The notes under the pieces were generated by a model. That model had not been told where the DNA came from. It saw only the letters and a list, made by a program, of their open reading frames with translations, and did not search any database. The position numbers and the translations under genes are program-made. A stretch of DNA of 36,330 nt from Deltaproteobacteria bacterium RBG_16_44_11 (GTDB taxonomy: Bacteria > Desulfobacterota > Syntrophia > Syntrophales > Smithellaceae), in assembly GCA_001797845.1 (NCBI GenBank), contig MGQN01000035.1, forward strand, positions 54,589-90,918, written 5' to 3'. Positions 3,070 to 17,475 of this stretch are shown here, one piece after another (positions within the stretch are counted from its first letter, which is position 1; the number at the start of each line of letters is the position of its first letter).

Positions 3070-3696
3070 TTGCCGCACATAGGGAACGATATCGTGGATT
3101 TGAGAGAGCCGTTGAACGTGAGGAAAAGCCGCGATTTGCGCTTTCTAAAGAAAATCCTCACCGCTGCTGAAATTGAATTTGTGCAGGGCGCAAAAAATTC
3201 CGATCAGGCTCTTTGGTCTTTTTGGGCCTGCAAAGAAGCTTCGTATAAAGTTATTAAAAAAAAATATCCTGATGCTCGTTTTTTGCCGCGCCGCTGGCAG
3301 GTATTGTTGCGCCAGACGGCATCATCGCATATTGACGGCGAGGTGGTGATACCTGCCAAAGATAAAGTTTACGTGCGCGTTTTTTTTCATGCCGAGTATG
3401 TTCATTGTATCGGGGCGGATGATCAAAAAGCCTTAAAAAATGTGATCTGCAAGGTGAAAGCTCTGGAGGTAAAAGAAAACACAAAAGAAAAAGACGCGTC
3501 TTTATTTTTAAGGCAAAGTTTTGCGCAGGGCCTGATTGCTCAGCTGCATTTAAGCCATTCCGATATAAAAATAAAAAGAGAAAAAGAACAAGGCGGGCTT
3601 GGGCCGCCGCGCCTCTATATAGGCGGCAAAAAATCCGTTATCGATATCAGCTTGAGTCATGACGGCCGGTTTGTAGCTTACGTATTCCTGACATGA
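3070..3696 (+). CDS. 4'-phosphopantetheinyl transferase
   Basis: IGNDIVDL ... ALWSFWACKEASYKVIKK is the PPTase signature; TTG start at 3070 preceded by AGGAGAG. Confidence 0.85.
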   Translation: MPHIGNDIVDLREPLNVRKSRDLRFLKKILTAAEIEFVQGAKNSDQALWSFWACKEASYKVIKKKYPDARFLPRRWQVLLRQTASSHIDGEVVIPAKDKVYVRVFFHAEYVHCIGADDQKALKNVICKVKALEVKENTKEKDASLFLRQSFAQGLIAQLHLSHSDIKIKREKEQGGLGPPRLYIGGKKSVIDISLSHDGRFVAYVFLT

Positions 3697-3789
3697 TTAT
3701 AGCCATATCCGGATAATATATTGTCAGTTTAGCGCTGTTGTGTTAGTTACCTTTTTCAGTTTAAATTCAGCGCGAAAAAGGATTCCGAT

Positions 3790-5169
3790 ATGAGGATAGC
3801 AGTCCTGAACGGCTCGCCCAAGGGCCAAATCAGCGTGACCGTGCAATACGTAAAATTTCTGCAGCAGGAATTTCCGCAAGCTCAATTCCAAATGCTGGAC
3901 ATCGCCCTGAAAATAAAGAAACTTGAAAAAGATGAACAAGAATTTCAGAAAGTCATCAAAGAGGTATCGTCCGCCGATGCCGTGCTCTGGGCTTTTCCGC
4001 TGTATTTTTTTCTTGTTTGTTCCCAGTACAAAAGATTTATTGAATTGATTTTTGAAAGAAAAGAGACCTCGGCTTTCCGCGGAAAACCGGCCGCGAGTCT
4101 TTCTACGTCAATCAACTTTTTCGACCATACCGCCCACAATTATATTAATGCTATCAGTGACGATTTGGAGATGAAGTATTTCGGCTCTTATTCGGCGGAA
4201 ATGAGTGATATGCATAAATTCCGGGAGAGGCAAAGGCTGACTACTTTTGGTGAATTATTTATTAAGGCGATTAAAGATGGCACGCCTTCAATAAAAAATA
4301 ATAAGCCGTTAATAAAGCATGAATTTGTTTACGAACCGACCAAGCTTAGACCTGCAGAAACGGAAGGTAAAAAAGTATTAATAGTAGTTGACGATATTGA
4401 TAAAAGCTCCAACCTCCGTCTTATGATAGAAAATTTGCAGAAGGGGTTTTCTCCCGTGGCCGAATTGGTTCAACTAAAAGACATCGATATTCAAGGCGGC
4501 TGCCTGGGATGTATGCAATGCGGTTTAGATAATGTTTGCGTTTATGAAGGTAAAGATGGATTTATTGATTTTTTCAACCGGAAAATAAAAACAGCAGATA
4601 TTTTATTTATTGCCGGTTCCATTTTCGACCGCTATCTTTCGTCCTTATGGAAATGTTGCTTTGACCGCAGTTTTTTCAACGGCCACATACCGGCCATAAG
4701 GGGCAAACAAATCGGATTTGTATTTTCCGGGCCATTTCATCAAATTTATAATCTGCGTGAAATATTTGAAGCTTATGTTGGAATGCAACACTCCAACCTT
4801 GTCGGGTTTATCAGTGACGATATGGGCAGTTCGGAAGAAATCAATAACGCTTTGCAAATCGTAGCTTCCAACGCAGTTATGTATAGTAAGCTTGGATATA
4901 TTAAGCCGCAAACATTTTATCAGGTTGCGGGTACAAAATTATTTAGGGACGCTGTTTGGAGCAGGCTCCGTCCGGTTTTCCAGGCGGATCACAAATATTA
5001 TAAAAAACATGGATTTTATAATTTTCCCCAAAAAAATTACAAGTGGCGGCTGATTAACAACAGCTTGATTGTGCTTATCAAAATTCCGCGCGTGCGCCGT
5101 GAATTCATAAAGAGAATGAAGGTAGAAATGATCAGACCTTTCGGCAAATTTCTGAAAAAAACAAAATAA
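3790..5169 (+). CDS. tandem flavodoxin-fold NAD(P)H-dependent oxidoreductase; C-terminal half like iron-sulfur flavoprotein
   Basis: N-term MRIAVLNGSPKGQ...; second Rossmann-like unit KKVLIVVDDIDKSS... with CLGCMQCGLDNVC (CX2CX2CX5C). Confidence 0.75.
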   Translation: MRIAVLNGSPKGQISVTVQYVKFLQQEFPQAQFQMLDIALKIKKLEKDEQEFQKVIKEVSSADAVLWAFPLYFFLVCSQYKRFIELIFERKETSAFRGKPAASLSTSINFFDHTAHNYINAISDDLEMKYFGSYSAEMSDMHKFRERQRLTTFGELFIKAIKDGTPSIKNNKPLIKHEFVYEPTKLRPAETEGKKVLIVVDDIDKSSNLRLMIENLQKGFSPVAELVQLKDIDIQGGCLGCMQCGLDNVCVYEGKDGFIDFFNRKIKTADILFIAGSIFDRYLSSLWKCCFDRSFFNGHIPAIRGKQIGFVFSGPFHQIYNLREIFEAYVGMQHSNLVGFISDDMGSSEEINNALQIVASNAVMYSKLGYIKPQTFYQVAGTKLFRDAVWSRLRPVFQADHKYYKKHGFYNFPQKNYKWRLINNSLIVLIKIPRVRREFIKRMKVEMIRPFGKFLKKTK

Positions 5170-6027: not shown

Positions 6028-6148
6028 ACCACTTCGAAATCAAAGCGCTATCTTTGTTGGCGTCGTTGTCGGTTTCCTCAACGTATGTAAAATACGCCTC
6101 ATCGCCTCCGCCTAGCCGCCTCGATATCATCTTTGATTTAGAAGTGGT
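6028..6148. repeat. MITE-like/palindromic dispersed element, copy A
   Basis: Terminal inverted repeats accacttcgaaatcaaag / ctttgatttagaagtggt (17/18); related in inverted orientation to 13809-13955 (shared aaatcaaagcgctatc, cctcaacgtatg, gatatcatct). Confidence 0.8.
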
Positions 6149-6259: not shown

Positions 6260-6315
6260 GGATAACGCAGAATTCAGCCGGAGCGTAAGTGATTGGCTGA
6301 AATGATTTGTTAGGC
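6260..6315 (-). other. attC-like recombination site (integron cassette type)
   Basis: Minus strand: GCCTAAC-AAATCAT-TTCAGCC-(15 nt)-GGCTGAA-TTCTGC-GTTATCC; perfect RYYYAAC R'' box, 7/7 paired L boxes, imperfect R' box (GTTATCC versus GTTRRRY); lies just 3' of the minus-strand ORF. Confidence 0.5.
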
Positions 6316-6328
6316 GATTCATTATCCA

Positions 6329-6922
6329 TTATTCGACTGGATTTGTTATTTGAACATCACCGAGATTAGCCAAACATACCATAAATTTTTTCTGCAAATC
6401 AAAATCGGCCTCAAGCAGTCGTTTGTATTCCTTTATTGAGTATAGAAATAGTTTTTTCAATTTCCATATATTGACTAAAAAATTCTGTGAGTCCACCACC
6501 TCCTGTATGCATTCATGACAATCAGACGTATCGTCTACAACAAAAGAATAAAACTTTTTATCCTTTTTTCTCTTTATGCCAAGCCGATAACCATGTGCTA
6601 TGGCATGACGAAATTGGACTAATGCTACTGATTTATGGTTTTGGAGTTGCGCAACTTTGTTTAAAAAGTTTTCTATTAACGCGCTACACGTCTCATGTTC
6701 CCCTGACCACAGCTTTGTTAAAAGTTCAAACCCTACCATAATACCTAGGCACGTAAGTAATGGGGATTTCACTTTCACTGGTGGGCCATCTTCTTGACCA
6801 TATTGATTTTGCAGGTCTCTTCGCAAAAGATACATAAGGGATACTTGATTTTCATAGAATCTATCTGAAGGATGGCTAAAGACCCTTGCTATTTCAGTTT
6901 GAACATCATTAGAAAATAACAT
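6329..6922 (-). CDS. hypothetical protein, HEPN-like helical domain (RHAIAH)
   Basis: Start at MLFSNDVQTE preceded by AGGTAGGT; FRHAIAHGYRLG contains an R-x4-H motif; otherwise unrecognised. Confidence 0.6.
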   Translation of the reverse strand: MLFSNDVQTEIARVFSHPSDRFYENQVSLMYLLRRDLQNQYGQEDGPPVKVKSPLLTCLGIMVGFELLTKLWSGEHETCSALIENFLNKVAQLQNHKSVALVQFRHAIAHGYRLGIKRKKDKKFYSFVVDDTSDCHECIQEVVDSQNFLVNIWKLKKLFLYSIKEYKRLLEADFDLQKKFMVCLANLGDVQITNPVE

Positions 6923-6930
6923 AATTTTAC

Positions 6931-7605
6931 CTACCTTCGCCGATGCTGGCAAAGTGTCTTTGGATCATAGTCCCGCTCAAATTCCACGTAGAAGTCGTCA
7001 CCACTGAAAGACATGCGATAGTAGCTGTAAGCACGCCCATCTGGGCTATCCCACAGCCAAGATGGCATAGGATACATCCTGCCACAACACAAACACGCGT
7101 TAGCAAGAGTGTTGATACCAAATGTTGGTACATCTGGGTGGATGTATCGGGTGTACCGGCCACACCACTTGCACCGCATATGGTATTTGAAACTAGGCAT
7201 TGTCCATCTGAGCCATTTTGGTAGTGCCCAATAGCGGGTCAGCTTAGTTTCGTACTGCGCTTCCTCATTTGTGAGTGGAATAGATAGGACATGCTCGCAC
7301 ACTCTGATGTAATAAAAAATGTAAGGCTCTAATGCCGGCATTCTTTTTAGTGACCATTTTAGGTACTGTTGTGCCTTGGCATATTCACCTTGTTTATAGT
7401 ACATGCGTGAAAATCCACCAATCCAAGCTACGAGTTCCTTATTCTCTTGAAAACCTGGCAAGTTCAATATTACTTCGACGTGACGTAAGGATAGTGTATT
7501 AAAGTCAGTACCACTTGCCCGAGGCTGTTTTTTCCCTTCCAAATCAATGTAGTATTCGCTGACTGAACGCTGTATAGCATTCTGTGGTTGCTCTATTTGG
7601 GCCAC
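6931..7605 (-). CDS. hypothetical protein with TPR-like helices and a C-terminal CxxC...CxxC zinc-ribbon-like motif
   Basis: GTG start with AAAGGAAG RBS; CKWCGRYTRY...ACLCCGRMYP; GEYAKAQQYLKWSLKRMPALEP TPR-like segment. Confidence 0.6.
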   Translation of the reverse strand: MAQIEQPQNAIQRSVSEYYIDLEGKKQPRASGTDFNTLSLRHVEVILNLPGFQENKELVAWIGGFSRMYYKQGEYAKAQQYLKWSLKRMPALEPYIFYYIRVCEHVLSIPLTNEEAQYETKLTRYWALPKWLRWTMPSFKYHMRCKWCGRYTRYIHPDVPTFGINTLANACLCCGRMYPMPSWLWDSPDGRAYSYYRMSFSGDDFYVEFERDYDPKTLCQHRRR

Positions 7606-7651: not shown

Positions 7652-7947
7652 GTTTTCCCTTATACATAAAGCCCAACAATTAATATACGAACTTCGCTTT
7701 TTCCGATTATTTGAGTATCATTTTAGCACGAATCATTTTTTTCCAAAAGTGAAAAACATGGAAAATTTGTCCAAGATTATTGCTTGAAATCAAGCAGTAT
7801 CTGCACTGGCGACATTACAGTTGTGTTCCGAAATTGAGCGCGGTTCTATCCATACTGAAACCAAGTTTTGTATGAACCAATTAATGGTCAAGGACAAAGC
7901 AATGATTAAAATTGATCTTTCGGGCGGAATATTGTACAAAATCCGTC

Positions 7948-16938: not shown

Positions 16939-17475
16939 CTAAAATCCCGCCATCATGAGGTTAAAAGCTTTCTCCGCCGTGTCGTTGGCTAATTTAGTAA
17001 GAGCGTTTTTTCGAATTATGGGGAACAAATTAATATTATCTTCCAGGGTGTATTCAACGGTGCCATTTATATTCTTCGAACTCCAGATAATTTTGCCGCT
17101 TTCCCGTTCACGGAAAGTCAATTCTAAAGTAACTGTCGCTCGTTCTTCCGCGGCCAGAGTGTTGGCTCGATAAGAAAGAGCGATAGTATTATAATTAAGA
17201 ATAGTTCCCTTAATTATCGCATCAGCCGCTTCCGTGCTTCCCACAACTTTCAAGCGGCTGTATTGAATAAGTTGGTTGATGAATGCTGTCCGGACATAAT
17301 TTTCAATTTCGGCCTGTGCCGTTTTATTTCCGAAAGATTCGACATAAACTTTTTGAATGCGTTTGTCGATGTAATTTCCTTGCGGTGCGAAAGAATAGCC
17401 GCAGCACAAAAATGGAAGGGTGGCAAAGCAAACGAAAATGGTTCTTATGATATTTTTCCAGTTTAATTTTTTCAT
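16939..17475 (-). CDS. lptE: LPS-assembly lipoprotein LptE-like
   Basis: Lipoprotein-like N-terminus (LPFLCCGYSF), KVYVESFGNKTAQAEIENYVRTAFINQL...; immediately downstream of leuS. Confidence 0.75.
   Translation of the reverse strand: MKKLNWKNIIRTIFVCFATLPFLCCGYSFAPQGNYIDKRIQKVYVESFGNKTAQAEIENYVRTAFINQLIQYSRLKVVGSTEAADAIIKGTILNYNTIALSYRANTLAAEERATVTLELTFRERESGKIIWSSKNINGTVEYTLEDNINLFPIIRKNALTKLANDTAEKAFNLMMAGF

Follow-up and report, generated by a model that had tools for sequence, protein, structure and literature searches.

The window, i.e. the whole stretch of DNA that was analyzed (36,330 nucleotides of contig MGQN01000035.1 of Deltaproteobacteria bacterium RBG_16_44_11), contains two small co-directional genes separated by a gap of 8 nt, the upstream one encoding a zinc-ribbon/TPR-like protein and the downstream one a HEPN-like protein (Table 1). 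The initial annotation had described this pair without giving its strand, together with an R-x4-H motif in the downstream protein, two CxxC pairs in the upstream protein, flanking repeats and a conserved HD gene nearby. Both reading frames and the gap were recovered as described, on the minus strand, as were both motifs; the repeat at 6028–6148 is a dispersed inverted-repeat element of about 120 bp, to which some 25 complete or partial sequences of the genome are related, and the neighbouring HD gene is conserved in all but two of 24 relatives. The sequence AAGGAAG precedes the zinc-ribbon gene, and a TTG-started alternative of the HEPN-like gene would extend to position 6952. The two genes form a genuine pair, in a genetic context that is well supported. 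What had been overlooked is the integron setting of the pair, comprising an attC site, an attI-like site and a relic of an integrase gene.

Table 1. Features of the locus, with positions in the window.
Feature	Position	Strand	Details
Dispersed repeat	6028–6148		Inverted ends ACCACTTCGAAATCAAAG/CTTTGATTTAGAAGTGGT; within the 1.9-kb insertion, outside the cassette
attC site	6261–6316	minus	R'' GCCTAAC ... CAGCC/GGCTG stem ... GTTATC; 3' end of the cassette, just 3' of the HEPN-like gene
HEPN-like (RX4H) gene	6329–6922	minus	ATG start; 197 codons plus stop; downstream gene of the pair
RX4H motif	6593–6610	minus	RHAIAH, within FRHAIAHGY; R105-x4-H110
Zinc-ribbon/TPR-like gene	6931–7605	minus	GTG start; 224 aa; upstream gene of the pair
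CxxC pairs	7162–7173 and 7084–7095	minus	C145xxC148...C171xxC174
Cassette 5' boundary	7677–7671	minus	GTTGGGC
Orphan attI-like site	7671–7761	minus	Promoter-like AT-rich left half; core GCGAAGTTCGTATATTAATTG^TTGGGC; crossover point between 7677 and 7676
Integrase gene-start relic	7758–7775	plus	ATGGAAAATTTGTCCAAG = MENLSK; six codons

The whole locus is an insertion. The SDR and HD genes are separated by about 20–35 nt in five congeners and by 1.9 kb in the window, and the relic integron is inserted between these two genes; in the closest relative (G398), the HD gene is preceded by different DNA. The 3' end of the inserted cassette was identified using a covariance model (R2) derived from 14 of the genome's other attC sites, with the window copy left out. 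The window attC site matches this model with 47.7 bits (E = 8.8e-9) and has the layout RYYYAAC, imperfect stem, GTT; the next best match in the window, a weaker attC-like sequence at 17213–17277 on the minus strand, has an E value of 0.067. Compensatory changes occur in the stem across the 15 sites, the inner stem pairing in 95.6% of cells, and related attC sites, arrayed on contigs C15, C44 and C33 of the same genome, mark the ends of small genes. At the other end, the 5' boundary of the cassette fits G^TTRRRY, and a TTGGGC boundary is also found at L037, a homologous locus described below. No known Rfam non-coding RNA was matched in the region. The two genes are one two-gene integron cassette, the sole cassette left in a relic integron, and the anatomy of the locus (relic integron, attI, cassette and attC) is almost certain. 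What was an anonymous gene pair thereby becomes a cassette whose ends are defined and whose function can be tested.

The element adjoining the 5' boundary is dispersed: the genome contains 13 copies of its core with up to three mismatches, in both orientations, versus none for the reversed control, and 15 and 13 copies were counted in G398 and G414, respectively. In the copies that were read, the genes behind the core differ from copy to copy. The element was identified as the attI region of this integron group because, in a genome of the same family (G407), an identical core is found next to an intact intI, in divergent orientation, and is then followed by a cassette with attC. The identity between the window site and the G407 site (contig C185) extends over 46 nt, and the G407 integrase (443 aa) scores 413.9 bits against a cut-off of 265. 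A variant of the core adjoins intI in G419. Furthermore, six codons of an integrase gene start remain in the window in the expected divergent position (blastn, 22 nt, 95%, 7753–7774), the G407 integrase starting with MENLSN. No intI-type gene (TIGR02249) was detected elsewhere in the assembly, which is 91.9% complete, so that one could be missing. Instead of the functional intI beside attI that defines a complete integron, the window has the six-codon relic alone; with attI and the start of the integrase gene present and intI gone, the locus is read as a single-cassette relic integron. Straightforward integration at an arbitrary secondary site, which was considered first, gave way to this reading because a repeated attI with an integrase relic forms the 5' junction. 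The promoter of the window attI copy was absent among the consensus promoter matches.

Two other loci show comparable remains. On contig C15 of the genome, an attI copy heads an array of seven attC sites and adjoins the helicase gene that neighbours intI in G407, with no intI present. In G398 (contig C99, L077:1949–2076), IntI residues 1–29 are joined to residues 413–431, divergent from an attI copy. Integrons often lose intI, for example in Xanthomonas (PMC12444791). The window locus resembles CALIN elements and integrons with an inactivated intI in having an attC cassette and no intI detected in the genome; however, unlike CALIN, it keeps attI and six codons of intI, it has a single attC and copies of its attI are numerous across the genome. 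The default CALIN threshold is two attC sites (PMC9024848), and single-cassette integrons without an integrase, such as the window locus, fall under the default threshold of present software. Comparison with intact relatives makes attI-like sites recognizable outside class 1 integrons.

Homologues of the cassette are few. A zinc-ribbon homologue occurs in three of the 155 genomes of the order, the window genome included; over all searches, homologues of this protein were found at L037, L028, L038, L029/L025 and L030 (32–81% identity), and homologues of the HEPN-like protein at L028, L037 (80%) and L034 (25%). The pair is intact at L037 (G478, another family of the same order), where no attC was recognizable. 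At L028 the first gene is 5'-truncated and the second is intact, and the cassette ends in a canonical attC followed by further cassettes. The proteins at these two loci are 79–81% identical to those of the window, and dN/dS ratios of 0.23–0.33 (dS 0.31–0.51) indicate that both genes are under purifying selection. The cassette has moved horizontally, because its synonymous divergence lies in this range while FabF, compared between G478 and the window genome, is saturated at synonymous sites. In G478 the pair also lies near the fab cluster, and vertical inheritance at the end of this cluster was therefore considered; it was rejected on a cassette dS of 0.35–0.49, with FabF saturated and a PPTase dS of ∼5.9. 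A phage or plasmid origin of the pair was likewise rejected, as searches of plasmids, phages and viral contigs returned no homologues of either protein.

The expectation that the two genes co-occur was borne out in part: the pair recurs at L037 and L028, but the zinc-ribbon gene stands without a HEPN gene in G414 and at L030, the latter an attC-bounded single-gene cassette, and the distant HEPN homologue at L034 is also an attC-bounded single-gene cassette. At L029, another locus with a zinc-ribbon homologue, the contig ends. The spacing within the pair is variable, being 59 nt at L037 and similar at L028, and G414 shares part of the longer spacer. The 8-nt gap of the window is derived and looks like the product of a deletion between GTAGGT repeats; close coupling of the two genes is therefore not a conserved feature.

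No Pfam or NCBIfam model reaches its cut-off for either protein, PADLOC gave no match for either up to an E value of 10 and the PHROG matches of both were at chance level. Weak matches in G110 (L023), G260 and G355 were dismissed as chance, since the L023 reading frame is a dephospho-CoA kinase. A HEPN-like protein with a zinc-ribbon partner thus escapes current defence and family libraries.

In the upstream protein, C145, C148, C171 and C174 are invariant in six homologues, giving the two conserved CxxC pairs of a zinc ribbon. The helical repeats previously attributed to this protein fared less well. One TPR-like stretch is present and the N-terminal half is mostly helical in a structure model of medium confidence, but the TPR matches are below the cut-off: TPR_1/TPR_2 is matched with an E value of 3e-4 in the homologue P0006, below the Pfam cut-off, and with E values of 0.04–0.1 in the window protein. 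A Foldseek search with the model found no structural neighbour at E ≤ 0.001.

For the downstream protein, the best Pfam match is PF18737 (HEPN_MAE_28990), which spans the RX4H region and whose score of 16.1 bits (E = 0.014) lies below the cut-off of 26.8. In characterized HEPN RNases RX4H is the active site (PMC3710099). A motif of this kind in a single 197-aa protein would be weak evidence alone; better evidence comes from its invariance in the 25%-identical homologue at L034, with which 41 of 197 positions, R105 and H110 among them, are invariant. Both residues are invariant across all four HEPN homologues found, in agreement with the HEPN-like assignment of the initial annotation. Judged from the motif, a HEPN fold and RNase activity are likely, and the second gene is predicted, with the odds clearly in favour, to encode a HEPN-type RNase. 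The main alternative for this protein is an all-helical protein without RNase activity, in which RX4H is fortuitous or degenerate and the role is, for example, nucleic-acid-binding or structural. An AlphaFold2 prediction from a two-sequence alignment gave an all-helical model whose pLDDT of 41 is too low to be informative; this outcome and the sub-threshold Pfam match are the points in favour of such a protein. However, the retention of both R and H at 25% identity and the FRxAxxH context, described as typical of HEPN, argue against it, and it is considered improbable. Another RX4H-like protein (RNHLVHG), with no Pfam match, is encoded by the cassette adjoining the HEPN cassette at L028 (L028:1231–1935). 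It was rejected as a HEPN relative, as the HEPN profile aligned just 19 columns around the motif (E = 0.11).

Related arrangements have been described previously, namely a HEPN family carried on integron cassettes and another found in operon with TPR genes (PMC3710099). The window cassette resembles the former (PDB entry 3jrt; Anantharaman et al., 2013, PMC3710099) in carrying a HEPN-type RX4H protein as an integron cassette, whereas its HEPN gene shares the cassette with a TPR-like/zinc-ribbon gene and no sequence match to 3jrt was found for its product among PDB chains. HEPN proteins of the 3jrt type have been proposed to stop translation under stress (PMC3710099). The LA2681-type HEPN proteins, which are fused to TPR or encoded in one operon with it (PMC3710099), share with the window a HEPN gene beside a TPR-like gene; in the window, however, the partner also has a zinc ribbon, and no LA2681 model appeared among the Pfam matches at E values of up to 10.

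The best overall explanation, with a probability of roughly 0.45, is a relic-integron cassette that encodes a HEPN RNase and its zinc-ribbon partner. The pair sits directly behind attI, the position in which a first cassette is normally expressed from an integron promoter. The second gene would provide a metal-independent RNase of the HEPN type (RX4H), and the product of the first, a TPR-like/zinc-ribbon protein, would act as its sensor, adaptor or regulator. Under stress, such as phage infection, the HEPN protein would cut host RNA and translation would stop, resulting in abortive infection or dormancy. Judging from the context, the two proteins may act jointly and their output may be defence or dormancy, and the full functional reading (a HEPN RNase and a TPR/zinc-ribbon partner, carried on a cassette and serving defence or dormancy) is put forward tentatively, at somewhat short of even odds. 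Points that weigh against this explanation are the lack of PADLOC and NCBIfam matches, the sub-threshold Pfam score and low pLDDT of the HEPN-like protein, the empty Foldseek search with the zinc-ribbon model, the solitary homologues, the lack of plasmid, phage or viral-contig homologues and the absence of this attI copy from the consensus promoter matches.

Two other accounts of the pair were weighed against this explanation. In a type II toxin–antitoxin module, as had been suggested from the gene order, the zinc-ribbon protein would be an antitoxin that is made first and restrains the HEPN RNase. Two small co-directional genes with the partner first, an RX4H RNase motif and carriage on a mobile cassette, on which toxin–antitoxin modules are common, would all agree with this. 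However, the obligate co-occurrence expected of such a module was not seen, given the solitary zinc-ribbon genes of L030 and G414 and the solitary HEPN cassette of L034; the 8-nt gap gives way to 59 nt at L037, and a partner of 224 aa that combines TPR-like and zinc-ribbon parts would be a large antitoxin. The toxin–antitoxin part of the earlier proposal is thus unsupported and quite unlikely to be correct, while a defence-type role, its other part, stays plausible on account of the integron cassette and of sister loci that head defence genes. The solitary homologues fit a chance pairing, in which unrelated genes, each acting alone, are adjacent merely through a shared cassette. Cassettes can fuse on loss of an intervening attC, and the 59-nt spacer at L037 ends in GTTAAAT, a candidate attC end. 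Nevertheless, both genes are kept in all three of the closest copies (at least 79% identical) and are similar in divergence and selection, and a chance pairing is regarded as rather unlikely.

About 13 orphan attI copies are distributed over contigs C3, C5, C6, C10, C15, C20, C22, C23, C24, C33, C35 and C44 of the genome (L124–L133 and L013), and no intI was detectable in this genome (G000), in G398 or in G414. Genes matching PADLOC families (E < 1e-7) lie behind four of 14 tested orphan sites, a set that includes the window site and that was partly picked as defence-like before the remaining sites were added; one more site, L128, has no usable reading frame. The families are PDC-S18, GmrSD-like NsnA, caspase/PDC-S65 and a Type II MTase with REase. 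As a control, ten housekeeping reading frames of the window gave one weak dGTPase-like match. Anti-phage genes are abundant among integron cassettes (PMC12409362); in V. cholerae, ∼10% of the integron cassettes were active against phages (Darracq et al., 2025, as reviewed in PMC12409362). The defence-like genes behind the sister sites favour a putative role of the pair in defence or dormancy. A more speculative extension, held to be doubtful, is a distributed integron, in which a dozen or more attI-plus-promoter sites, scattered over the chromosome after losing their own intI, would mostly hold one defence or dormancy gene each, the window cassette being one such load. Each site would be, or would once have been, an independent expression slot that is always in first position and is filled by an integrase acting in trans. 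Should an enrichment of defence genes behind the orphan copies be confirmed, the integrons of this group would work as one distributed set and not as one array. The genes matching PADLOC families include those at L125:1021–1911, L126:2167–3497 and L129:1395–3035 and 3273–5003, and the GmrSD-like gene behind its orphan attI is split into two reading frames.
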